From Vicinamibacterales bacterium (GTDB lineage: Bacteria; Acidobacteriota; Vicinamibacteria; Vicinamibacterales; SCN-69-37): a stretch of 64,000 nucleotides of DNA. The stretch lies in assembly GCA_030827135.1 (NCBI GenBank), contig JAURFE010000005.1, positions 1 through 64,000 on the forward strand. Direction: 5' to 3'. This document shows positions 34,226 to 54,100 of the stretch, one piece after another. Numbering within the stretch: the stretch's first letter is position 1; the number at the start of each line of letters is the position of its first letter. A program made the position numbers and the translations under genes. The notes under the pieces were generated by a model. It had not been told where the DNA came from. It saw only the letters and a program-made list of their open reading frames with translations, and ran no database searches.

Positions 34226-34735
34226 TTACGCCCCGGCCGCCGGTTCCGCCGCCCGGGCGCCCAGTTCCCGATCAAGATCAAGGATCGACGACGGATCGTC
34301 CTTCACCATGCGCAGCTTCGCGACGATGTCGCGGACGGTTTTTTCCTCTTCGACCTGCTCGGTGATGAACCACTGCAGTTCGGCCATGGCCGCAAAGACC
34401 TTTTCGGTGAAGGCCATCTCGTAAAGGGCGTCGATCTGCTGGCTGACCACCTTCTCCTGGGCCTGCGCCGCCTCGAAGACCTCGAGGAGCGACCCGAAGG
34501 TGGCACCCGGTTCGGCAATTCCGCCGAGTGTCACTGGATAATGGCGGGCAATCAGGAAGTTGAGCAGCTTCATCGCGTGCGCGTACTCTTCCTGACTCTG
34601 CAGCCGAAACCAGTGGCCGGCGCCCGTGAACTGGCGGTGTTCACACCAGGCCGCCATCGCCAGATACGAAAAGGACGCGGAGAACTCGGCCGCGACCTGC
34701 TGGTTGATTGCACTGAGCACTTTGGGAGTCATCAT
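34226..34735 (-). CDS. Ferritin
   Basis: A 169-aa iron-storage protein. The ferroxidase-centre residues lie in QQVAAEFSASFSYLAMAAWCE, LQSQEEYAHAMKL, EKVVSQQIDAL and LQWFITEQVEEEK, the standard bacterial FtnA layout. Start: two adjacent ATGs (34735/34732) after GAGGTAGAG. The C-terminal Ala-rich tail is short. It is divergent from the M28 peptidase and reads towards the STAS gene. Confidence 0.93.
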   Translation of the reverse strand: MMTPKVLSAINQQVAAEFSASFSYLAMAAWCEHRQFTGAGHWFRLQSQEEYAHAMKLLNFLIARHYPVTLGGIAEPGATFGSLLEVFEAAQAQEKVVSQQIDALYEMAFTEKVFAAMAELQWFITEQVEEEKTVRDIVAKLRMVKDDPSSILDLDRELGARAAEPAAGA

Positions 34736-34780
34736 CTCTACCTCGTCTTCCCCAGTATGTCCTATCCAGGAGCGGCTATC

Positions 34781-37309
34781 ATGTCGGCCATGGCACGACG
34801 CTCCCGTCTTCCGCTTCTCACCGCTGCCGTCCTCCTGCTTGTGGGCACGTCCAGCGCCTCCCGCCTCTCCGCACAGGCCGGTCCGGCCGCCGATTACCGA
34901 GCGGCAGTTGACCTCTGGGAAGCGGGCCGGTATCACGACGCGCTACCGCGCCTGCTCGCCGTTCTCCGGTCGCCGGCGTCGGCGGACTACCTTGAGCGCA
35001 TCGCACTGTTGACCGGCGAGTGGTACCCGTCCACCGCCATCGCTGACGATGGACGGCTGCCCAGGCTGTCACCGTCGGGCCAGTTCGTCTCGTACGAAGT
35101 CGGCCCCGCCGCGGACCCGACGACGCGCATCGTCCGCGCCACTGCCGGTGGGCCACTCGTCGCCGAGGTGCGCGGCGAAGGCGTGGTGATCAACGCCGCC
35201 GGCACCCACGCCGCCTGGATCCGGCAGCCGGATGGCGCCCTGGTGTCGCGCGACCTGCGCTCGGGCGCCGAGACCCTCCACAACACAGGGGCCCTGCTCA
35301 AGACCGCGCCGCACTTTGCAGCCGATGGCCGCCAGCTCCTGTTTGTCGGCGCCGACCCGGGTGACCTCACCCGATCAGACATCTATCGCACGCGGCAAGG
35401 CGAGGTCGCGGAACGCCTGACGACCGAGGCAGGCTTCAAGACGCTGTCGGCCGTCGACCCCTCCGGCGCCGCCCTGCTCTACATCACCGGCGGGGCGCCG
35501 ACCTTCCGCGCCCCGGGCGCCGCTCCGGCAGGCGGCCGCGCGGGTGCCGGGGGGCGTGCAGGAGGTGCGGGCGGGGGGACGACCGCGACGTTCTCCGTGC
35601 TGAATCTGTCCACCGGGGCCACACGCACCATGCCGGGCACCGGGGCCACCATGTCGGCCAACGGACAGACCCTCGCGTGGGTGACCCGCAGCGCGGACGC
35701 CTACACCTTGTACACATCCCCGACGCTGTCGGACACGGTCACGGTCGTGCGCACCGGGCGGGAGCGATTGGAGGCGCCGGCGCTCTCCCCGGACGGCACG
35801 GCCGTCGCCTATCAATGGATGCAGTTCTCGGACTGGGACATCTATGTCTCACGCGGCACCATCCACACACGGGTGACGCGCGACATCCAGCACGACCTCC
35901 TGCCGCGATTCCTGACCAGCACCACTCTCATCGGCATGATGGGCGAAGCGCGGCACCGCCGCAGCCAGATTTACGACCTCGTGACCGGCACGCGGCGGCG
36001 TCTGCTCCACAACAACACCATTCGCACCGTCGTGCCCGAGTACAGCTGGCAGGGCTCCGCCGACGGGCGCTACGTGCTCACGGTCGCCGATTATGACGGC
36101 GACACGGTGTCTCCGGAGCGCGGCATCTACGTCACCGATCTGACGCGCACGATCACACCGGCGGAGCTGACGACGCGCCTGACCGCGCAACTCGCGCACG
36201 AGACGGAATTGCGGACGCGCACCACCGCGATGTTCCAGCCGATGGCCGCGCAGGTGCGTGAGGTCCTCGCGGACGCGTCGGTGACCCGCGTCTTTGAACA
36301 TGCGAAGGATCTTTTCGCGTTTGACTCCAAACACATCTCCCAGCCCGGCAACGCCAGGGCGATCGAGTATCTGGCCAACGCGTATGCGTCGTTCGGCTAT
36401 CAGCCTGAGCAGCAGTGGTTCACGCAGGCCAACGCCCTTGGCGGCCGCACGGCCAACGTGCTGGCCACGCTGCGAGGGACCGTGAACCCCGAGCTGGTGT
36501 ACGTCATCTCCAGCCACTTCGATTCAGTCGCCACGGGTCCGGGTGCCGACGATGACACGTCGGGCACGACTGCGCTGCTCGAGACCGCGCGCCTGCTCGC
36601 GAAGACGCCGATGCCGGCGACGATCATCTTTGCGTCGCTGACCGGCGAGGAAGCCGGCTTGCTCGGCAGCCGCGAATTTGTGCGGCAGGCGGCGGCAAAC
36701 AAGGTGCGCATTGTGGGCGCGCTGAACAATGACATGATCGGCTGGGCCGGTGAAGGTCCCCAGCTGAACAACACGATCCGGTACTCGAACGCCGGCATCC
36801 GTGACATCCAGCATGCGGCCGCGTTCCTCTTCACCGACATCGTGCTCTATGACACGAAGTACTACCGCGGCACAGACGCCGCCGCCTTCTACGAAGCGTG
36901 GGGCGACATCGTCGGCGGGATCGGGTCGTACCCGATTCTGGCCAATCCGCACTATCACCAGCCAACCGACTACCTGGACACGATCAATCAGCGCCAGGTG
37001 ACCGAAACGGCGAAGGTGACGGCCGCAACCATCATGTATCTGGCGTCGAGTCCATCCCGACTGAACAACCTCGTGGCCGCGCGCACCGGCAACGGCGTGA
37101 CCCTCACGTGGGACGCCAGTCCTGAAACCGGCATCACCTCCTACATCGTCGCCTACGGTCCAGCAGCCGACCCTCTGCGCACGCGCATCACGGTGCGAAC
37201 GCCCACGGCCACCCTTCCCTCGCTGCCGGCCGGCACACGGATCGCCGTCAAGGCCGTCAACGACAAAGGCCTCGAGGGCTGGGACTGGGCGAGGGGAGAA
37301 GTCAGGTGA
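34781..37309 (+). CDS. Secreted TolB-propeller/M28 peptidase with C-terminal Fn3-like domain
   Basis: An 842-aa exported protein. A signal peptide (to about residue 28, RLSAQ) is followed by a WD40/TolB-like beta-propeller (~80-500) broken by a Gly/Ala/Arg low-complexity loop. The M28 domain (~560-760) has SSHFDSVATG, GADDDTSGTTALLE, TGEEAGLLGSR, NNDMIGW and NPHYHQPTD. The last ~80 residues look like a fibronectin type III fold. The ATG at 34781 has AGGAG eight bases upstream. Confidence 0.88.
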   Translation: MSAMARRSRLPLLTAAVLLLVGTSSASRLSAQAGPAADYRAAVDLWEAGRYHDALPRLLAVLRSPASADYLERIALLTGEWYPSTAIADDGRLPRLSPSGQFVSYEVGPAADPTTRIVRATAGGPLVAEVRGEGVVINAAGTHAAWIRQPDGALVSRDLRSGAETLHNTGALLKTAPHFAADGRQLLFVGADPGDLTRSDIYRTRQGEVAERLTTEAGFKTLSAVDPSGAALLYITGGAPTFRAPGAAPAGGRAGAGGRAGGAGGGTTATFSVLNLSTGATRTMPGTGATMSANGQTLAWVTRSADAYTLYTSPTLSDTVTVVRTGRERLEAPALSPDGTAVAYQWMQFSDWDIYVSRGTIHTRVTRDIQHDLLPRFLTSTTLIGMMGEARHRRSQIYDLVTGTRRRLLHNNTIRTVVPEYSWQGSADGRYVLTVADYDGDTVSPERGIYVTDLTRTITPAELTTRLTAQLAHETELRTRTTAMFQPMAAQVREVLADASVTRVFEHAKDLFAFDSKHISQPGNARAIEYLANAYASFGYQPEQQWFTQANALGGRTANVLATLRGTVNPELVYVISSHFDSVATGPGADDDTSGTTALLETARLLAKTPMPATIIFASLTGEEAGLLGSREFVRQAAANKVRIVGALNNDMIGWAGEGPQLNNTIRYSNAGIRDIQHAAAFLFTDIVLYDTKYYRGTDAAAFYEAWGDIVGGIGSYPILANPHYHQPTDYLDTINQRQVTETAKVTAATIMYLASSPSRLNNLVAARTGNGVTLTWDASPETGITSYIVAYGPAADPLRTRITVRTPTATLPSLPAGTRIAVKAVNDKGLEGWDWARGEVR

Positions 37310-37342
37310 TTGAGGATTGAGGATTGAGGATTGAGGATTGAC
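37308..37342. repeat. Five tandem copies of a 7-bp repeat
   Basis: GATTGAG occurs four times in a row followed by GATTGAC, beginning within the stop codon of the M28 gene and ending three bases before the next start codon. Confidence 0.95.
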
Positions 37343-37344
37343 TT

Positions 37345-38301
37345 GTGAGTGTTCGCGTTTGTCCCCAGTGCGGATTTTCGCACCTGCGGCCGTCGCGGGC
37401 GCACACTGGGTTTGGGCACGTGCAGGCGTGGTGGACCCGGACGCGGTGGTTCCAGTGTCAGACGTGCGGCTGGCGCGGGCGGATCCGCGACGTGTGGAGT
37501 GCCGATACGGCGTTCCCGGATCTCCCGCCGCTGCGTCTCGGGCGCGAACTCGACATCGAGGTCCTGCAGCAACGGGATGAAGAAGCGCTCGTGGACCTCG
37601 TGCTCTCCCACCAGGACGCGATCCAGCGCACGGTCAAATTGTGGCTCGACGACAGCCGACCGGCGCCCCCGGGATGGCTGCGCGTCACGACCGTCGCCAG
37701 TGCCAAGCGGTTGCTGACCGCCCAGGTGGTGCACGAAATTTCGCTCGACTACGACCTTGGATGGTGTTTGGACTGCATCAGCCGGCGGGAACACCTGAAA
37801 CACACCGAGCACCGCCACTGCCCGCATACGCCGACAGGGTACGACCTCGTGGTCTGGATGGCGCAGTCGGGCCACTGGCCGACGCTGCCGCCGACCGTCC
37901 ACAGTGGCAACCTGGATGGCGGGGCCCGGATGCTCGGCGTGATCGCCCGGCACTGGCACGGGGACCTGCTCGTCACGCCGGTCGCGGCGCCGGAGGCGGC
38001 GGGTGTCGCCCACGCGTCCCCACCTCCGGGCGTCACCACCACGCAGCATGCGGCCGTCGCGACGTTGACGGTGTGCCCGGAGTGCCACGGTCCCTATCTG
38101 CAGCGGGCGCATCGGCACTCAACCCTGGATCGCTGGCGCACACGCGTCACACGCCGGTATCCGGTGCGGTGTGCGGCCTGCGGATGGACCCGCTGGGTGG
38201 CCGCGCCGATTCTTGTGCGCTTCAGTTCCGGCACCGACACGCCGTCGGACCCTATCGAAGGTCGCCAGATCGAGCGCATCGATCCAGACGACGTAGAATA
38301 G
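37345..38301 (+). CDS. cREC-like (cyclic-phosphate-processing receiver) domain between two zinc ribbons
   Basis: A 318-aa protein. Residues ~5-47 are a zinc ribbon (CPQCG...CQTCGWRG). Residues ~95-200 match the cyclic-phosphate-processing receiver (cREC) pattern: LWLDDSRPAPPGW, then TTVASAKRLLTAQVVHEISLDYDLG, then a TGYDLVVWM segment and a VHSGNLDGGARM end. Residues ~240-290 hold a second ribbon (CPECHGPYL...CAACGWTRWV). Known cREC proteins have been linked to RNA repair and conflict systems by comparative genomics; the ribbon-cREC-ribbon fusion is not one I recognise. GTG start. A His/Cys-rich insert (CLDC...HTEHRHCPH) interrupts the domain and may bind another metal. Confidence 0.75.
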   Translation: MSVRVCPQCGFSHLRPSRAHTGFGHVQAWWTRTRWFQCQTCGWRGRIRDVWSADTAFPDLPPLRLGRELDIEVLQQRDEEALVDLVLSHQDAIQRTVKLWLDDSRPAPPGWLRVTTVASAKRLLTAQVVHEISLDYDLGWCLDCISRREHLKHTEHRHCPHTPTGYDLVVWMAQSGHWPTLPPTVHSGNLDGGARMLGVIARHWHGDLLVTPVAAPEAAGVAHASPPPGVTTTQHAAVATLTVCPECHGPYLQRAHRHSTLDRWRTRVTRRYPVRCAACGWTRWVAAPILVRFSSGTDTPSDPIEGRQIERIDPDDVE

Positions 38302-38305
38302 CGGC

Positions 38306-39139
38306 ATGTCGTATGACGACCTGCCGCTGCGGCCGGGTACGGGCCAACGCCCGCCGCCTGTGCCGGAGCGCCCCCCCGCCGCCTCACCGCTCCGGTGGGT
38401 GGCCGTGGGTGCAGTCGCGCTTGTCGCCGGTGCCGCGCTGGCGTTCTGGTGGATGACCCGGGCCCAGCCGGAAGACCCCGTGCCCGCACCGACCGCGGCC
38501 AGTGACGGCGCGCAGTCGTCGAACCGGCCCCTCCGCCAGCCCATCGAACTGCCCGCGCTTGACGCGTCGGACGCGCTCTTCCGCGACCTCGTCGGCGTGT
38601 TGTCCCGCCACCCCGCCCTGGCGCGCCTGTTGGCGACCGATGGGCTGGTGCGGCGCGCGGTCCTCGCCGTCGAGCAGGTCGGTGACGGCCGCACGCCGTC
38701 TGTGCCGCTGATGCCCCTGCGTCCCCCCACGCGCCTTGCGATTGTCGGCGGTGCATCGGGCCCGATGGATGCGCGCACGTATGCCCGGTGGGACGCGGCG
38801 ACCACCGCCTTGACGTCCCTGAATCCGCCCGAGGCGGCGCAACTCTATGTCAACGTGAAGCCGTTGTTTGACGCGGCCTATGCGGAGCTTGGACATCCCG
38901 GTGGGGACTTTGATGCGGCGATCACCAGGGCAATCGACATGTTGACCGTCGCGCCGGTGCCCGCGTCCCCGCCGGACCTGTTGAGGCGCCTTGGCTACTT
39001 CGAGCACAGCGATGCCACGTTGCGGTCGCTCCGCCCCGTCCAGAAGCAGTTGATCCTGACAGGCCCGGATGCCCAGCGGCGCATCACCGACTGGCTGCGC
39101 CGTCTGGCCGCCGCACTCGACCTGCCGATTACCGGCTGA
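38306..39139 (+). CDS. DUF3014-domain membrane-anchored protein
   Basis: A 277-aa protein. A Pro-rich cytoplasmic N-terminus and one TM helix (about residues 29-50) precede a conserved domain: ELPALDASDALFRDLVG, LMPLRPP, AAQLYVNVKPLFDAAYAELG, and LRSLRPVQKQLILTGPD. This spacing matches DUF3014. Function is unknown. It starts five bases after the cREC gene stop, so it is likely cotranscribed; its 3' end overlaps the convergent methyltransferase by 11 bases. Confidence 0.85.
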   Translation: MSYDDLPLRPGTGQRPPPVPERPPAASPLRWVAVGAVALVAGAALAFWWMTRAQPEDPVPAPTAASDGAQSSNRPLRQPIELPALDASDALFRDLVGVLSRHPALARLLATDGLVRRAVLAVEQVGDGRTPSVPLMPLRPPTRLAIVGGASGPMDARTYARWDAATTALTSLNPPEAAQLYVNVKPLFDAAYAELGHPGGDFDAAITRAIDMLTVAPVPASPPDLLRRLGYFEHSDATLRSLRPVQKQLILTGPDAQRRITDWLRRLAAALDLPITG

Positions 39140-40199
39140 GTGACCGCGGTCGCATCCGGTAGTGCGTGACGAGCCACTCGTCACCGCCCCGCCATCCCCA
39201 CAGTTCCGCACACGCCATGAAGAACACACGCCAGCGCACCCACCAGCGGGTCGCCTCGGACGCGCCGTAGGTCTGTTCGAACAGCGGCCGCAACTCGTCG
39301 CGGTGGCGATCCATGTTGGCCAGCCAGGCCTCCGCGGTCTTCTGGTAGTGCGTACCTGATTCGCGCCAATGCCCGTCGACCACCAGATCGGCCTGGAACC
39401 ATGTGGGAAAATCGTCGGACGGCATGATGCCGCCGGTGAAGAAGTGGGCGGCCATCCAATCCGAACGGTCCCGCACTTCGTAGGCATAGGCGTACTGGTG
39501 ATGCGTGAAGATGTGAAAAAAGAGCAGGCCCTCGGGACGCAGCCAGCGCGCGATGCGCGCGAACAGCTCGCGCCAATTCCGCATGTGTTCGAACATCTCG
39601 ACCGACACCACCCGATCGAAGGTGCCCGGCGCCTCGAACGTGTTCATGTCGGCGGTGATCACGGTCAGGTTCGTGAGGCCGTCGCGCTGCGCGGTGGCGT
39701 CGATGAACGCTTTCTGCGTCCGGGAGTTCGAGACCACGACGATCTCACTGCCGGGATAGTGGCGGGCCATCCACAGGGACAGCGAACCCCAGCCGCAGCC
39801 CAGTTCAAGAATGCGCTGCCCGTCGGCGAGACCGGCGCGTTCGGCCGTCAGCGCGAGCATGCGGCGTTCGGCGTCATCGAGCGCGGTGACGCCGGGATCC
39901 CAGAAGGCGGACGAGTACTTGAGGTGGGCGCCGAGCACGCGCTGGAAGAAGGCCGTCGGCACCTCGTAGTGCTGGGTGTTCGCGGCGCGGGTCGCGACCG
40001 CGAGGGGGCCCTGACTGCGGGCGTCAACGAAGGCACGCATGCGCGCCTCGGCAGCCTCGGCGGAGGCCGACCGCTCTTCGCGGAGCCGGCCGGCAATGAT
40101 GCGCCGGATGCCCCAGCGGATGAGCCAGTCGGGCAGCCGGTCGCTCTCCAGCAAACGTTCCCGGATCGACTCCGTGCCCTGCCCTTCGTGTTGCTCCAT
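39129..40199 (-). CDS. Cfa-type SAM-dependent methyltransferase
   Basis: A 356-aa enzyme of the cyclopropane-fatty-acid synthase superfamily. Motifs include HYEVPTAFFQRVLG, SSAFWDPG, ILELGCGWGSLSLWMA, SVEMFEHMRNW, and FFHIFTHH. It lacks the N-terminal lipid-binding domain of the full Cfa at 43011 and is more similar to stand-alone Cfa-like methyltransferases. Substrate is probably an unsaturated lipid or similar molecule, but it could also be a small-molecule methyltransferase. The start at 40199 overlaps the start of the divergent desaturase. Confidence 0.8.
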   Translation of the reverse strand: MEQHEGQGTESIRERLLESDRLPDWLIRWGIRRIIAGRLREERSASAEAAEARMRAFVDARSQGPLAVATRAANTQHYEVPTAFFQRVLGAHLKYSSAFWDPGVTALDDAERRMLALTAERAGLADGQRILELGCGWGSLSLWMARHYPGSEIVVVSNSRTQKAFIDATAQRDGLTNLTVITADMNTFEAPGTFDRVVSVEMFEHMRNWRELFARIARWLRPEGLLFFHIFTHHQYAYAYEVRDRSDWMAAHFFTGGIMPSDDFPTWFQADLVVDGHWRESGTHYQKTAEAWLANMDRHRDELRPLFEQTYGASEATRWWVRWRVFFMACAELWGWRGGDEWLVTHYRMRPRSLSR

Positions 40200-40961
40200 C
40201 TCTCGACGCTCCTCGTGTTTGTGGTGCCGTTCAGTCCGTCGCTCGTGGCGTGGTGCGCCGGGTCGTATGTCCTGCGGATGTTTGGCGTCACCGCCGGCTA
40301 CCATCGATATTTCAGCCATCGATCCTACTCGCTGGCCCGGCCCTGGCAATTCGCTCTGGCCGTCCTGGCACAGACGTCGGGACAAAAAGGCGTCCTGTGG
40401 TGGGCGGCGCACCATCGCGACCATCATCAGCATTCAGACCGTCAGGCCGACGTGCATTCCCCCGTGCAGGAAGGCTTCTGGTGGTCACACGTCGGGTGGA
40501 TCCTGTCGCCCGACTATGACACCTACGACGCCAGGCGCGTCCCGGATTTCACCGTATTCCCCGAATTGCGATGGCTGGACCGCCATCACTGGGTCCCGTT
40601 CCTCGGCTACGGGGCGCTCCTCCTGGCGGTCGGCGGCACCGCGGTGTTTGTGTGGGGCTTCCTGGTCTCGACCGTCCTGCTGTATCACGGCACGTTTCTG
40701 ATCAACTCACTGGCCCACGTCTGGGGCACGCGCCGCTTTCCCACGCCGGATGAAAGCCGCAACAATTTCTGGCTGGCGCTGATCACCCTGGGCGAAGGCT
40801 GGCACAATAATCACCATCACTTCATGTCGAGCGTGCGACAGGGCATCCGCTGGTGGGAAATTGACGTGACGTACTACGTCCTGCGCGCGCTCTCCTGGGT
40901 GGGCATCACGCGCCAACTGCGTGACTTCCCCTCCACGCGGCGCGACGGGTCCACACCGTGA
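40188..40961 (+). CDS. Acyl-CoA/acyl-lipid desaturase (stearoyl-CoA 9-desaturase type)
   Basis: A ~257-aa membrane di-iron enzyme introducing a double bond in fatty acyl chains. The three histidine boxes are HRYFSH, HRDHHQHSD and HNNHHH, separated by hydrophobic segments. The first TM (LLHLSTLLVFVV) starts almost at residue 1, so the start codon is uncertain: GTG at 40188 is used; TTG 40191 is equally possible, and no ATG precedes the first His box. It overlaps the divergent Cfa-type gene head to head by about 12 bases. The stop overlaps the GTG of the next gene. Confidence 0.85.
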   Translation: MLLHLSTLLVFVVPFSPSLVAWCAGSYVLRMFGVTAGYHRYFSHRSYSLARPWQFALAVLAQTSGQKGVLWWAAHHRDHHQHSDRQADVHSPVQEGFWWSHVGWILSPDYDTYDARRVPDFTVFPELRWLDRHHWVPFLGYGALLLAVGGTAVFVWGFLVSTVLLYHGTFLINSLAHVWGTRRFPTPDESRNNFWLALITLGEGWHNNHHHFMSSVRQGIRWWEIDVTYYVLRALSWVGITRQLRDFPSTRRDGSTP

Positions 40962-42214
40962 CGCGCCGCGTCGTGGTGGTCGGCGGCGGCATTGCGGGCC
41001 TCTCGGCCGCCTGGCTGCTGTCGAAGCAACACGAGGTGGTGCTCCTGGAGCAGGCTTCGCGTCTCGGCGGCCACACGCACACCCACGACGTCCCCGACGC
41101 GCAGGTCCCGGGCGGCATCGTGCGTCTGGACACGGGTTTCCTGGTGCACAACAACCGCACCTACCCGCTTCTTGTGCGCCTGTTTCACGAATTGGGTGTG
41201 GAATGCATCGACTCGGACATGTCGTTTGCGGTCACCGGTCGCCGGCCTGATTTCGAGTACAGTAGCCGCAATCTCAACGGACTCTTCGCTCAGCGTTCAA
41301 ACCTCGTGCGCCCTGGACACTACCGCTTGCTGTCCGAAATTCTGCGCTTCAATCGTGAGGCCCCGCGCCTGCTGACCCACCCGGGGGCCGCACAGATGCC
41401 CCTCGGGGATTTTCTCGACAGTCACAGGTTCACCGGAGAATTTCTCGAACGGTTCCTGTTTCCGATGGCGTCCGCCGTCTGGTCCGCCGCCTGGCCGACC
41501 CTGCGCGCGTTCCCCGCGACAACCCTGATCCGGTTCTTCCACAACCACGGGATGTTGTCCGCGACGGACAACCCGGTGTGGCGCGTCGTGCGCGGCGGCA
41601 GCGCCACCTACATTCCCCGACTGCTGCAGACGCCTCGCCTCACCGTGCGCACCAACACGGCACCGGCCAGGGTGACGCGCACGGCCGGCGCCGTCCGCGT
41701 GGAGATCACCGGTCAGCCCTCCCTTGAGGCCGACGACGTGGTGTTTGCGTGTCATGGCGATCAGGTCCTGCCGCTGTTGGCGGACGCGACGGACGCCGAG
41801 CGGCGGGTCCTGTCGTCGTTCACGACCAGCGTCAACGACACGTGGCTCCACACCGACGCGTCGTTCCTGCCGAGGCGTCGGGCCGCCCGCGCATCATGGA
41901 ACGTGCTGATCGGCGAACGCGACGAGGCGTGCCTCACCTACGACCTGAATCGGCTCCAGCAGTTGAAGACGCCCACCCAGTACTGCGTCACGCTGAATCC
42001 GCCCAGGCCCATCGCCCCCGATCGGGTGCTGGCGCGCATGCGCTACACGCATCCCCTGTTCACGCGTGAAGCCGTGGCGGCCCAGGCGCAGTGGGCGGAC
42101 ATCAGCGGCCGGCATCGCGCGCACTTCTGCGGCGCGTACTGGTTCTACGGCTTCCACGAGGACGGCCTGCGGTCGGCGGTGCGCGTCGCTGAGGCGCTGG
42201 GGGTGACGTGGTAA
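40958..42214 (+). CDS. FAD-dependent amine-oxidase-like oxidoreductase
   Basis: A 418-aa flavoprotein. The Rossmann start VVVVGGGIAGLSAAWLL and the LEQASRLGGHTHTH substrate-site segment match the NAD(P)-binding Rossmann/amine oxidase family that sits beside cfa and DUF1365 genes in many bacteria. The C-terminal HFCGAYWFYGFHEDGLRSA is the FAD-contact end. Probably acts on unsaturated fatty acyl groups or their cyclopropane derivatives (inference from neighbours). GTG overlaps the desaturase stop by four bases. Confidence 0.85.
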   Translation: MTRRVVVVGGGIAGLSAAWLLSKQHEVVLLEQASRLGGHTHTHDVPDAQVPGGIVRLDTGFLVHNNRTYPLLVRLFHELGVECIDSDMSFAVTGRRPDFEYSSRNLNGLFAQRSNLVRPGHYRLLSEILRFNREAPRLLTHPGAAQMPLGDFLDSHRFTGEFLERFLFPMASAVWSAAWPTLRAFPATTLIRFFHNHGMLSATDNPVWRVVRGGSATYIPRLLQTPRLTVRTNTAPARVTRTAGAVRVEITGQPSLEADDVVFACHGDQVLPLLADATDAERRVLSSFTTSVNDTWLHTDASFLPRRRAARASWNVLIGERDEACLTYDLNRLQQLKTPTQYCVTLNPPRPIAPDRVLARMRYTHPLFTREAVAAQAQWADISGRHRAHFCGAYWFYGFHEDGLRSAVRVAEALGVTW

Positions 42215-43014
42215 CCGGGCACGCGCTCTATGTGGGCCGACTGCGGCATCGACGCTTCCGTCCCACGCCGCACGAATTCATCTACACGCTGTTTATGCCA
42301 CTCCTCGACATCGACCGCCTCGACGAGGCGGCCGAGGTCTCACGCCTGGTCTCGCGAAACCACTTCAACTGGGCGTCAATCGACGACCGCGACCACGTCG
42401 GGCCTGCCGCACTCCCCTTGCGCGAGCGCCTCGCCGCGCGTGCCCGTGCCGACAGCCGCACGCTGCCCGACGGACCGATCTACGTGCTCAGCCATCTTCG
42501 CTACCTGGGATATGCGTTCAACCCGATCTCGTTCTACTTCTGCTTCGACGCGACGCACACCCTCGCGACCATCGTCGCCGAGGTGAACAGCACGTTCGGC
42601 GAGCAGACGCTCTACTGGCTGCCCGGCAGCGCCACCCCGAACGGCGTCGTGCGACACCGCACGGCCAAGACGATGCACGTGTCGCCGTTTAATGAGGCGC
42701 ATCTCGACTACGACTTCACCGTCACATCCCCGGGCGCCGCGGGCACGTCCCTCGTTGCGCACATGACAACCATCGATCGGACGGAGGGCACCGACGTGCC
42801 GTTTTTTGATGCGACCCTGACGCTGGAACGGCAGCCGTGGGACGCCGCCCATCTCCATCGCGCGCTGCGGCGTCATCCGTGGATGACCGCCAAGGTGATT
42901 AGCGCGATTCACTTCGAAGCGCTGCGGCTGTGGTGGAAGGGCCTGAAGTACGTGCCACATCCGTTGACGCCGCAGCAACGACGCCACAAACGCGAACAGG
43001 AGGCCCGCGCATGA
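42208..43014 (+). CDS. DUF1365 family protein
   Basis: A 268-aa protein. Conserved segments: YVGRLRHRRFRPTPHEFIY, LRYLGYAFNPISFYFCF, EVNSTFGE, KTMHVSPFN and IHFEALRLWWKG. This family occurs next to FAD oxidoreductases and cyclopropane-fatty-acid synthases in many bacteria. Biochemical role is not established, but the context is lipid modification. GTG start overlaps the upstream gene by seven bases; the stop overlaps the cfa start (ATGA). Confidence 0.9.
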   Translation: MVTGHALYVGRLRHRRFRPTPHEFIYTLFMPLLDIDRLDEAAEVSRLVSRNHFNWASIDDRDHVGPAALPLRERLAARARADSRTLPDGPIYVLSHLRYLGYAFNPISFYFCFDATHTLATIVAEVNSTFGEQTLYWLPGSATPNGVVRHRTAKTMHVSPFNEAHLDYDFTVTSPGAAGTSLVAHMTTIDRTEGTDVPFFDATLTLERQPWDAAHLHRALRRHPWMTAKVISAIHFEALRLWWKGLKYVPHPLTPQQRRHKREQEARA

Positions 43015-44282
43015 CCTGGAAGCAGACACACGCCCGCCGCGCATTTTTTGCCGCGGCCGAACACCTCGCCCACGGCAGCCTCGACGTCGTGTGTCCGGAT
43101 CGCACGTGGCAGTTCGGACGGCCGGGGACGGGGCCGGCCGCGATGCTGGTGGTGCACAACGAGCGGGTCTTCGAACGTGCCCTGTTCGGCGGCGACCTCG
43201 CGCTTGGCGAGTCGTTTGTGGACGGCGATTTTTCGTCGCCGGACCTGGTGGCCCTGCTGCGGCTCGCTGTCAGGAACATGGCGGTGTTCCGCGCGCTCAA
43301 CGGCCCGTGGTCGTGGGTCAGCCGGCAGTTGGCGTCGGTCGCGCACTGGCGGCGCCGCAACACCCGCGCCGGGAGCCGTCGGAACATCGCGGCGCACTAC
43401 GACCTGGGCAACGACTTCTTCAGCCTGTTCCTCGACGAGGCGCTGGCGTACTCGGCAGCCTGGTACGACACGACGGGCGACTCGCTCGAGCAGGCGCAGA
43501 TCAACAAGTTCGATCGTATCTGCCGCAAACTGCAGCTGACTCCGGACGATCACCTCCTGGAGATCGGCACGGGATGGGGCGGATTCGCGGCGTACGCAGC
43601 CACACACTACGGCTGCCGGATCACCACCACCACGATCAGCCGCGAGCAGTTCGACGGCGCCCGACAGCGATTTGAGGCCCTCGGAGACGCCGGCCGCCGC
43701 ATCACCCTGCTCTGCGAGGACTATCGCGACCTGACCGGCCAGTTCGACAAGCTGGTCAGCATCGAAATGTTCGAGGCCGTGGGGCTCGAACATTACGACA
43801 CGTTCTTTCGCACCGTGGACCGATTGACCGCCCCTGACGGCGCCGCGCTGCTGCAGCTGATCACCATGAACGACCAGGATTTCCACCGGTCCTACCGGGG
43901 GACCACCGACTGGATTCAAACCTACATCTTCCCCGGCTCCGAACTGGGATCGCTGTCGGAGATTCACCAGTCGCTCGGTCGCGTCACGACGCTCCGCCCC
44001 TTCCACCTGGAAGACCTCGGCGTGCACTACGCTTGCACACTCGCGGCCTGGCGCGAACGGTTCCATGATCGGTTGCATGATGTGCGTCGGCTGGGGATGG
44101 ATGACCGTTTCATTCGCATGTGGGACCTGTACCTGGCTTACTGCGAAGCAGCGTTTCGGGAGCGGCACATCTCGGACGTCCAGTTCCTGCTGACCCGCGC
44201 GTATCACGACGCGCGATACATGGGCGACCCAGTACCGGCCGCTACGGATCCGTCATTTGCGACTTCAACGCACTTGGCATGA
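43011..44282 (+). CDS. cfa: Cyclopropane-fatty-acyl-phospholipid synthase
   Basis: Adds a methylene bridge from SAM across double bonds of membrane phospholipid acyl chains; 423 aa. It has an N-terminal lipid-binding domain (FGRPGTGPAAMLVVHNERVFERALFGGDLALGESFVDGDF), then NIAAHYDLGNDFFSLFLDE, LLEIGTGWGGFAAYAA, SIEMFEAVGLEHYDTFF and YIFPGSEL. Full-length domain order matches bacterial Cfa. The desaturase upstream could supply the double bond it uses. Confidence 0.92.
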   Translation: MTWKQTHARRAFFAAAEHLAHGSLDVVCPDRTWQFGRPGTGPAAMLVVHNERVFERALFGGDLALGESFVDGDFSSPDLVALLRLAVRNMAVFRALNGPWSWVSRQLASVAHWRRRNTRAGSRRNIAAHYDLGNDFFSLFLDEALAYSAAWYDTTGDSLEQAQINKFDRICRKLQLTPDDHLLEIGTGWGGFAAYAATHYGCRITTTTISREQFDGARQRFEALGDAGRRITLLCEDYRDLTGQFDKLVSIEMFEAVGLEHYDTFFRTVDRLTAPDGAALLQLITMNDQDFHRSYRGTTDWIQTYIFPGSELGSLSEIHQSLGRVTTLRPFHLEDLGVHYACTLAAWRERFHDRLHDVRRLGMDDRFIRMWDLYLAYCEAAFRERHISDVQFLLTRAYHDARYMGDPVPAATDPSFATSTHLA

Positions 44283-44319: not shown

Positions 44320-44568
44320 ATGCGGAAGTGCCCTGCCTGCGGATCGTCTCGGATATACCCGTCCCGGCTCAGGTCCCTGCTTGAGCAGGCCAGACGCACG
44401 TTCAGCGAGAAGCAGCCGTACCGCTGTCACGCCTGCAATCATCGCGGCTGGTACCAGATTTACGTGCCGCTGACCGAAGGGCCCGACGACAAGCCTGAAG
44501 ACCTCCGCACGGGGCTCTCCTCTACGCCGATTACCCCGGACGACCTCGACCGGATCGATCGCACGTAG
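44320..44568 (+). CDS. Small zinc-ribbon protein
   Basis: An 82-aa protein: CPACGSSRIYPSRLRS...YRCHACNHRGWYQIYV, two CxxC knuckles about 33 residues apart, then an acidic tail ending DDLDRIDRT. The ribbon and tail resemble those of the cREC protein at 37345 (CPQCGFSHLRPSR...CQTCGWRG and an end IERIDPDDVE), suggesting a shared family. Function unknown. Confidence 0.7.
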   Translation: MRKCPACGSSRIYPSRLRSLLEQARRTFSEKQPYRCHACNHRGWYQIYVPLTEGPDDKPEDLRTGLSSTPITPDDLDRIDRT

Positions 44569-50935: not shown

Positions 50936-51158
50936 CATCGGGGATCGGGGAATCGGAAAGCGATAATCGATTCTCGATAATCGCTAATCTGGGAGTCGGG
51001 AATCTGCATCTGGTAATCGAACAATCTGGCAATCGACCGCGGCGATTACCGATTACCAGATTACCGATTACCAGATTCAGATTCCCGATTCCCGGATTGC
51101 TCGAATATCGAGAAGCGATTACCGCTTTCCGATTCCCCGATTCCCCGATTCCCCGATG
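50936..51158. repeat. Giant imperfect palindrome (~220 bp) built from GAATCGG-like heptamers
   Basis: The left arm (50936-51039) and the right arm (51040-51158) read as inverted copies around a central CCGCGG at 51037-51042, with several mismatches and small gaps. Both outer ends are CATCGGGG/CCCCGATG. Sub-repeats of ATCGGGGA, GGTAATC and GGGAATC occur within the arms. It occupies the whole spacer between two convergent genes, ending two bases before the stop codon of the minus-strand gene. It may serve as a bidirectional terminator. Confidence 0.85.
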
Positions 51159-51160
51159 AC

Positions 51161-54100
51161 TTAGAAGCCCTGGACCATGCCGAGCTGCCACTTCCAGGGG
51201 CGGCGGGCGCGGTCCAGGGCTCGAGCGGCGGACAACTCCAGCGTGATGAAACCGAAGAGGTTCGCGCGCACCGCAGCGCCGTAGCTCCGCACCAGGCGCC
51301 GATCGCCGCCCACAAATGACGGACTCGATCCCGACGACCAGGCCACGCCGGCGTCGACGAACGCCGCGATTTCCAGCGGCACGTAGTACCCGTAGTCGAG
51401 TTCGCCGCGGAGCAACCCCAGCAACGGAGCACGCAGCTCAATGTTCCCCACGGCCACGCGGCTGCCTAACAAGCGATCGAAGGCGTAACACCGATCGGGA
51501 TCAAAGGCCGTGCACTCCCCCGGTTCGTACGATCCGAAGCCGTACCCATGCACGAGTTGTTGATGGCCGGCATACATGCGCGCCAACTGGGAATGCTCTG
51601 CGTCCGCGCCGTAGCGGCCGACGTGCACCGCGCGTATGGCCAGCGTGACCGGCTGGACCGGCATCAGATAGTGCCGCCAATCCGCGGTGGCCGTGATGAA
51701 CTGCAGCGAGCCGCGCGTCGATCGCGCTTCGAAGCGATACCGGCGTCCGAGAATCGGGCTCGTCGGACCAGAGACCGAGGAATCGTGGACGAGGGCGCCG
51801 GTCAGCTCGAAGAGTCCGAGAGAGGTGGCCGTCTTCTCCTTCAACTCGCGCCGCTCGATGAATGCCTCGGTCTCGGTCACATAGATCTGATCTCGCAATT
51901 CACGGTTAAACGCCACCGCATGCGCCCCCACGCCGGCCTCGAACCGGGTGGCGCGACTGAACGGAAAGATCGTCATCGCGGACCCGCCGCGGTAGATCTG
52001 CCGCTCGATCACCTGACGGAGTGTCGTGGTGCCGGCCGCCTCATCCTGCTCCCATTGCAGGTATCCCAGCCGGTACGGAAGCGACTCGACCGACGCCGCC
52101 CAGTTCCAGCGATGGCGCCGGTTGAGGTACGACACCTGGCCGCCGATGTCGTCAACGTCGTCGGACAGTTGAATCCCCATCCCCAGCAGGCGATCGCCGA
52201 GCATGTCGCTGAACATCGCACCGACGCCGCCGCTGACAAAGCCGCCGAACGAGTCAACGCCGGCCGTTACCGTCGGCTGCGTCACGATGTCGAGCGACAA
52301 CGGGCGCGTGTAGGGTTCCGCTGCCACCGGCGGGCCGACCGGTGGCAGTCCCCGCGCGTAGTCGCCGAGCAGACGCGTAATGTCTCCCGTGACCACGCTC
52401 GACAAACTGCGCGGGCGCCCGCTGGCGGCCTCGGGCGTCAATGCAGAAGCGACCTGCGAGACCACCGGGGGCACCATCTCGATGACGTCGGCGGGATCGA
52501 GGATGTAGAGCGCGTGTCCGTCCCGCTCGAACACGCTGAAGGCGAGCCGATCGGTGTCGGCCGCCATCGACAGCGACGGACTCGTCCCCGCGATGCCCGA
52601 GATGCCGGTCGCCATCGCGGTTAATCGCGTGACCGGCCCTCCCTCGATGCCGATGCGGTAGAGGTTGCTGATGCCGTCAGGGTCGGCCACAAACGTCACC
52701 GTGCGACCATCACGGCTCACCTGCGGGCTCAGATGTTTTCCACGCAGAAACGCGTGCAGCGGCGCGACCTCACGCGAGGCCAGCGTGACGGTGGCGAGCC
52801 GCAGTTCTGCCGGACGCAGCATGGCCAGATCCGTGCTGTAGCGCTCGGTCGTAAACACCACGGTGCGCCCGTCAGGGGTGAAGACGGGTTCGAGATCCGC
52901 GAAGGGATCGGACGTCAGCGCCGTGACGGTACCGGCCGGCAGGGTCACGAGATACAGATCCACGAGGCCGCCACGATTGCCGCTGAGCACGAGCGACTGG
53001 CCGTCAGGCGCCCAGGCGGGACTCAGCGCATCATCGAGTCCCTCAAGCACGATTTCCCGCGTAATGCGGCCGTTCTCCGGATCGATGAATGCCAGCACGG
53101 GCCGGCCGCTTCGCACCACCGTGATCACCAGTTGCCGTCCGTCAGGCCGCCAGGCACCAGCGGACTGCAGGAACTGCAGACTGTCGAAGTGGGGATCGGT
53201 CGCGGCACTGATCAGCTTCCGTTCGATCCTGCCCGTGTCGGTGCGCGCCAGAAACAGGTCGACCGACAGCCGGTCCTTCTCAGAGAAGAACGCCACCCGG
53301 GTGCCGTCAGGACTCAGTTTGGGGCCGACGTTGATGCGGCCGCCTCCGTTGTCTTCGCTGAGCAACAGGCGCGGGTCGCTCGTCAGCGATGGCAGGTCCG
53401 CCTGCACGCCGGCAATGGCGGCCCGGATCGACGCGTGCCACGCTTCGGTCAAGCGATCGGGATCACTCCCCAACTGCGCCGCGAGCCCGGCCATGTCGAA
53501 TCGGGGATTGGCGGCCGACCGCAGCAGCGACGACACCGCGCGGTCGCCGTATGTCGATCCGATGAACGCCCAGAACGCGTGGCCCCACCGGTACGGAAAC
53601 AGTCGGGGGTCGTTCAGGTCCTTCAGGTGAGGCAGGCGCTCGGTGATGGCGGCATCCCGCATCCACATCGCCGTCTGCGCATCCACCGGTCCAATCGACA
53701 GGTACTCGGCCATCCCCTCGGCAAACCACAGCGGGTACTGCAGGATGCCGGGCAGACTGAACTCGGCGTCGCGGGGGTCCGCACCGGTGATATCGAACTG
53801 GAAGGCATGCACCAGTTCATGGCCCAGCACGTGGTCGGTGTCGGCGAGCGACCCGGCCATCGGCAACACGATGCGCCGTTTCAGGGCCTCGGTCGCGCCG
53901 CCGGTCCCCTCCCCGATGGCGCCTTCAATGGCATTGGTCTGCCGGAAGTGCGCCGGCGTGGCGTACAGAATCAGGGGTTGCCGGCCCCGCAGCTCATGGG
54001 TGAAAAACCGGGACAGCCGTGCATACCAGCGCTCGGCCATCCGCGCGACGATGCGGGCCGCCTCGGCTTCCTCCTGGTAGTAATAGACGTCAAAGTGCTC

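Follow-up and report, generated by a model that had tools for sequence, protein, structure and literature searches.

Organization of the locus

The window, i.e. the whole stretch of 64,000 nucleotides that was analysed, contains a gene with a GTG start codon whose product, here named P0001, is a cREC domain enclosed between two zinc ribbons (Table 1). The recognised neighbours of this fusion gene are an M28 peptidase, a DUF3014 protein and genes for fatty-acid cyclopropanation (CMAS and similar), and no kinase was identified near it. In fusion-bearing genomes the gene order is aldehyde dehydrogenase (minus strand), STAS, ferritin-like protein (minus strand), M28 peptidase, fusion and DUF3014; the ferritin-like gene was not detected in one of them. 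The earlier note on this DNA had described a DUF3014 protein as coupled downstream: the gene indeed begins 4 bp past the stop codon of the fusion, but the link is positional, and DUF3014 is found in 12 of the 14 genomes of the family, six of them devoid of the fusion.

Table 1. Features of the fusion locus and coordinates in the window
Feature	Position	Strand	Basis
M28-family peptidase, upstream neighbour of the fusion; exact start uncertain	34613..37309	+	profile match; synteny
GATTGAG tandem array, dispersed genomic repeat	37308..37341	+	x4.9 units; genome-wide matches
P0001, ribbon-cREC-ribbon protein	37345..38301	+	318-aa ORF; orthologues
N-terminal basic zinc ribbon of P0001, residues 4-51	37354..37497	+	member of ribbon alignment A4
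Linker 1 of P0001, conserved, helix 79-93, leads into cREC	37498..37629	+	dN/dS ~0.06; AlphaFold2
cREC receiver-like domain of P0001, residues 96-205	37630..37959	+	PF20274; invariant columns in A5; REC fold
Cys/His insert within cREC, possible third zinc site	37765..37827	+	C141xxC144 ... C159xH161
C-terminal basic zinc ribbon of P0001, residues 242-289	38068..38211	+	ribbon alignment A4
DUF3014 protein, conserved positional partner of the fusion	38306..39139	+	E 5.3e-29; synteny
Standalone ribbon protein, 82 aa, same ribbon family	44320..44568	+	A4 profile

Downstream, the region 39129-44282 holds two cyclopropane-fatty-acid-synthase-like methyltransferases, one (39129-40433) recognised by profile and the second by similarity, together with a probable desaturase, a FAD oxidoreductase and a DUF1365-like protein, read by eye. 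This cluster separates DUF3014 from the standalone ribbon gene of the window, whose counterpart directly follows DUF3014 in two other genomes (G013 and G010). The tandem heptamer that the earlier note placed directly upstream of the fusion is real, but as a part of the module it is ruled out: it is a dispersed repeat, with 11 exact, partly overlapping 21-mer matches across the genome, and it is absent upstream of the gene at four of the six orthologous loci. A separate array, CGATTAC/CCGATTCC, at 51043-51168, is likewise an intergenic-type repeat.

Domain structure of P0001

The two ribbons, each with a net charge of +7, carry paired CxxC motifs (C6xxC9 and C38xxC41 in the N-terminal one, C244xxC247 and C276xxC279 in the C-terminal one), and a Cys/His insert is found within cREC between the SLDYDLG and TGYD motifs, both as anticipated in the earlier note. 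The zinc ligands of the N-terminal ribbon and the putative ones of the insert are invariant across the orthologues, and those of the C-terminal ribbon are kept in all five full-length copies, the sixth being frameshifted. An assembly artefact is ruled out by the conservation of the architecture in six genomes, at full length in five.

The central domain, identified as cREC from the letters of the DNA, was confirmed by a profile search, which gave a match to cREC_REC (PF20274) over residues 98-200 with an E-value of 2.2e-18 and a score of 67.2 bits, against a curated cut-off of 27. This is the best Pfam match of P0001, and no canonical receiver family is among those listed; phrog_1479, of unknown function, also matches the cREC region (E 1.6e-11). 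The motifs are WLDD, SLDYDLG, TGYD and VHSGN. In a set of 48 aligned cRECs, which includes P0001, the invariant residues are D102, D103, S133, L134, D135, D137, L138, G139, H186 and N189 (P0001 numbering); all these columns are present in P0001, and the aspartates of LDD and SLDxDLG, predicted to be catalytic, are kept.

Structure prediction agrees with this assignment. The AlphaFold2 model, obtained from an input alignment of 48 sequences, has pLDDT values above 90 for most of residues 81-205, with lower values in the insert (67-79); the ribbons reach about 71-85 and display a strand-helix-hairpin pattern, while the long linker 2 and the tail are of low confidence. Matches of the model to solved structures are almost all receiver domains, the best one having a Z-score of 8.2 over 86 residues with 2.0 A rmsd; this value is borderline as evidence for the fold by itself, but it agrees with the PF20274 match. 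The response-regulator receiver PrrA (PDB 1ys6), with Z 8.2 over 86 residues, shares the fold and the acidic pocket, but is only 20% identical, and P0001 has the distinctive SLDxDLG and VHSxN motifs; moreover, unlike response-regulator receivers, the modelled domain appears shorter in its C-terminal part and would lack a fifth strand. Among the predicted viral structures that match the model is that of a phage protein with a cREC annotation, and a sequence search for a solved cREC structure gave none.

P0001 thus resembles the described cREC_REC proteins (PF20274; PMC7824862) in profile, receiver fold, acidic pairs (LDD and SLDxDLG) and TGYD and VHS-N motifs. Conversely, it differs from them by the zinc ribbon at each end, the Cys/His insert and its chromosomal locus, the described proteins being mostly from phages or prophages. 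Most of the cRECs sampled here measure about 100-180 aa, compared with 318 aa for P0001; fusions to Nudix domains have been reported (PMC7824862). Such an insert exists outside the fusion as well: two unfused cRECs bear cysteines at the same position, between DLG and the equivalent of TGYD. L035, a standalone cREC from another family of the same order, shares the CxxC...CPH arrangement and is 39% identical over the domain, whereas in the viral L134 the Cys-rich insert lies at the corresponding place, but is not residue-for-residue alignable. Unlike P0001, both proteins lack ribbons of the A4 type, described below.

A family of basic zinc ribbons

Both ribbons belong to a family of basic ribbons of 47 residues, common in the order, with the consensus CPxC...RSRxR..ER.R...T..RPYRC..CGWRGW. 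In the A4 alignment of 25 members, C3, P4, C6, C35, C38 and W40 are invariant and the net charge ranges from +6 to +13 in 46-48 aa; the two ribbons of P0001 align with all the invariant columns and with four cysteines each. The A4 profile matches the N-terminal ribbon with E 2.7e-16, although matches to the P0001 ribbons are partly so by construction, both being included in A4, whose members were first found through similarity to them. No NCBIfam model matches P0001 and its ribbons reach none of the Pfam and NCBIfam cut-offs listed: the fusion is not an already described family. By sequence, a ribbon finds among solved structures C2H2 zinc fingers and weak zinc-ribbon matches only, which we take as driven by composition.

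Outside the fusion, this family is represented in the order by standalone proteins of about 80-120 aa or by fusions to sugar enzymes; a ribbon duplicated around a cREC distinguishes P0001 from these members. In four loci (L010, L012, L020 and L026) the ribbon forms the C-terminus of putative CapD- or WecA-like sugar enzymes, as read from their sequence. In three others (L013, L016 and L029) the ribbon gene lies between genes for an O-antigen ligase (Wzy_C) and an NT5C-like phosphatase, and in L025 and L033 it adjoins topoisomerase IB. P0001 exposes an unnamed family of basic ribbons that recurs in surface-polysaccharide loci of an Acidobacteriota order. Tandem pairs of CGWRGW ribbons occur in some A4 loci (L013 and L014). 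Standalone copies are found in five of the six fusion-bearing genomes; of the eight genomes devoid of the fusion, seven have none and G002 has a single weaker match, within a frame of 190 aa. Close relatives of the standalone protein of the window are those of L025 and L033, from another family, beside topoisomerase IB.

Distribution and evolution of the fusion

The same architecture is present in five other genomes of the family (G011, G013, G010, G006 and G007), with 60-84% identity to P0001; in G010 the gene is split within the variable linker 2 by a frameshift, which may be genuine or due to an error of sequencing. When 84,980 species genomes were scanned with a pattern-based method, whose reach is limited to close relatives, the same five orthologues were returned and no others. 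No other ribbon-cREC fusion was among the matches listed in searches of the class (193 genomes) and of the phylum (396 genomes), and no related fusion was found in phages, plasmids or viral contigs. The ribbon-cREC-ribbon protein shows a known domain family in a new architecture, confined, among the genomes searched, to one bacterial family.

The fusion gene is under purifying selection, with dN/dS values of 0.10 against G011 and 0.16 against G013, which rule out a decayed gene; within the protein, linker 2 stands at about 0.6, compared with about 0.02-0.18 in the ribbons and in cREC. Two genomes (G008 and G009) lack it between its flanks, both of which are kept, so that the M28 gene runs directly into DUF3014; in four others (G001, G002, G003 and G004) M28 and the fusion are both missing from the locus. 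In the DUF3014 tree, which has one fork below the star threshold in the relevant part, G008 and G009 are nested within the fusion-bearing clade and two changes are counted in total, a single gain and a single loss of the fusion if the tree is rooted among the fusion-less genomes. Within the family the locus is chromosomal, keeps its synteny and has been inherited vertically; it is not an island. Thus, the gene is conserved where present but dispensable, since G008 and G009 keep both flanking genes without it.

Possible function

The cREC domain owes its name and its predicted role, the processing of cyclic phosphates, to its association with NAD/ADPr and RNA-ligase genes; it is regarded as a cyclic-phosphate phosphoesterase by prediction, with operonic links to RNA ligases (PMC7824862). 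A paper of 2022 still described it as experimentally uncharacterized (PMC9503650), and a literature search, extended to work after that paper, found no assay of its activity.

The explanation that we tentatively prefer, as a possible rather than a probable one, is that P0001 is a cytosolic, lineage-specific phosphoesterase of the cREC family, held on an anionic target by its basic ribbons. The cREC domain, with its complete acidic active site, would cleave a phosphate ester, which by family precedent could be a cyclic phosphate on a nucleotide, on an ADP-ribose derivative or on an RNA end; the two strongly basic ribbons, both drawn from the family common in the order, would hold the enzyme on its anionic target, most simply a nucleic acid, and a link with DUF3014, if any, is one that we infer. 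The cREC match far above the cut-off, the confident REC fold, the invariant columns, the low dN/dS, the basic ribbons, an architecture kept in six genomes and the family prediction for cREC with its operonic links to RNA ligases (PMC7824862) argue for this explanation, as does the Streptomyces phage Anedea, one of the phage matches, in which a cREC gene is flanked by tRNAs and stands about 3.4 kb from an RNA ligase. The dispensability of the gene, missing in G008 and G009, the lack of an RNA-repair partner (RtcB, KptA) among the neighbours or in the genomes, and a literature in which no activity of a cREC was found argue against it. It is kept at the level of the family because cREC activity is a prediction and RtcB and KptA were not seen. 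Moreover, basic charge need not mean binding to RNA or DNA, because such ribbons otherwise accompany polysaccharide genes. A more specific version, in which a phage-type domain was taken up, joined to the lineage's own ribbons and kept in the chromosome as a cyclic-phosphate phosphodiesterase tethered to nucleic acid, is improbable; if it were true, ribbons of this family might serve the order generally as a targeting tag.

The gene company of the ribbon family makes a non-enzymatic role nearly as good an explanation as the phosphoesterase, although a rather unlikely one in itself: P0001 would be a regulator or scaffold of the cell envelope, in which the ribbons bind proteins and cREC, which has a receiver fold, works in the manner of a receiver, as a switch, or senses a ligand. 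Ribbons placed between O-antigen ligase and NT5C-like phosphatase (L013, L016 and L029) or fused to putative CapD- and WecA-like enzymes, and the DUF3014 gene close behind the fusion in fusion-bearing genomes, are consistent with such a role. However, strong selection maintains the complete predicted active site, cREC is stated never to occur together with histidine kinases (PMC7824862), DUF3014 occurs without the fusion, and the literature search found no cREC described as a switch. It is also conceivable, but improbable, that the target of P0001 is a small cyclic nucleotide or an ADP-ribose-derived signal in phage defence or counter-signalling, the ribbons being incidental. Indeed, up to 18% of jumbo phages carry a cREC, and the domain is associated with genes for NAD/ADPr processing (PMC9503650); 126 cREC-encoding stretches were confirmed in one viral-contig scan; yet no defence gene was recognised among the identified neighbours of P0001, and its vertical, syntenic and chromosomal inheritance, outside any island, speaks against this role.

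The proposal of the earlier note, that P0001 forms with its neighbours a module for RNA repair or RNA end-processing, appears very unlikely. The family prediction for cREC (PMC7824862) and the basic ribbons point in that direction. Conversely, no RNA-repair or RNA-processing gene was recognised among the annotated neighbours, which are M28, DUF3014 and fatty-acid genes, the survey of the homologous fusions gave no RNA-repair partner of the RtcB or KptA type in the genomes bearing them, and the heptamer repeat is unrelated. None of the six genomes with the fusion has RtcB and none of the 14 genomes of the family has KptA, in searches whose controls were positive in 9 and 3 of the 14 genomes. 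The note was right about the domains, while the RNA or nucleotide end-processing that it suggested has the predicted activity of cREC as its one source.

P0001 joins a widespread domain of predicted activity to ribbons that may bind an anionic target, and, as a stable, chromosomal and selected two-ribbon family, it offers a convenient protein for testing the activity predicted for cREC.

Other cREC-like proteins of the phylum

Other cRECs were found in the class and phylum genomes searched; among the matches listed, those from elsewhere in the phylum (L175-L182) are without such ribbons. In another Acidobacteriota family (f38; L177-L182), a distinct receiver-/cREC-like family with the motifs LLDDD..RHRWF, FLDHDL and VHTRNADGAMRMV is present in many genomes.
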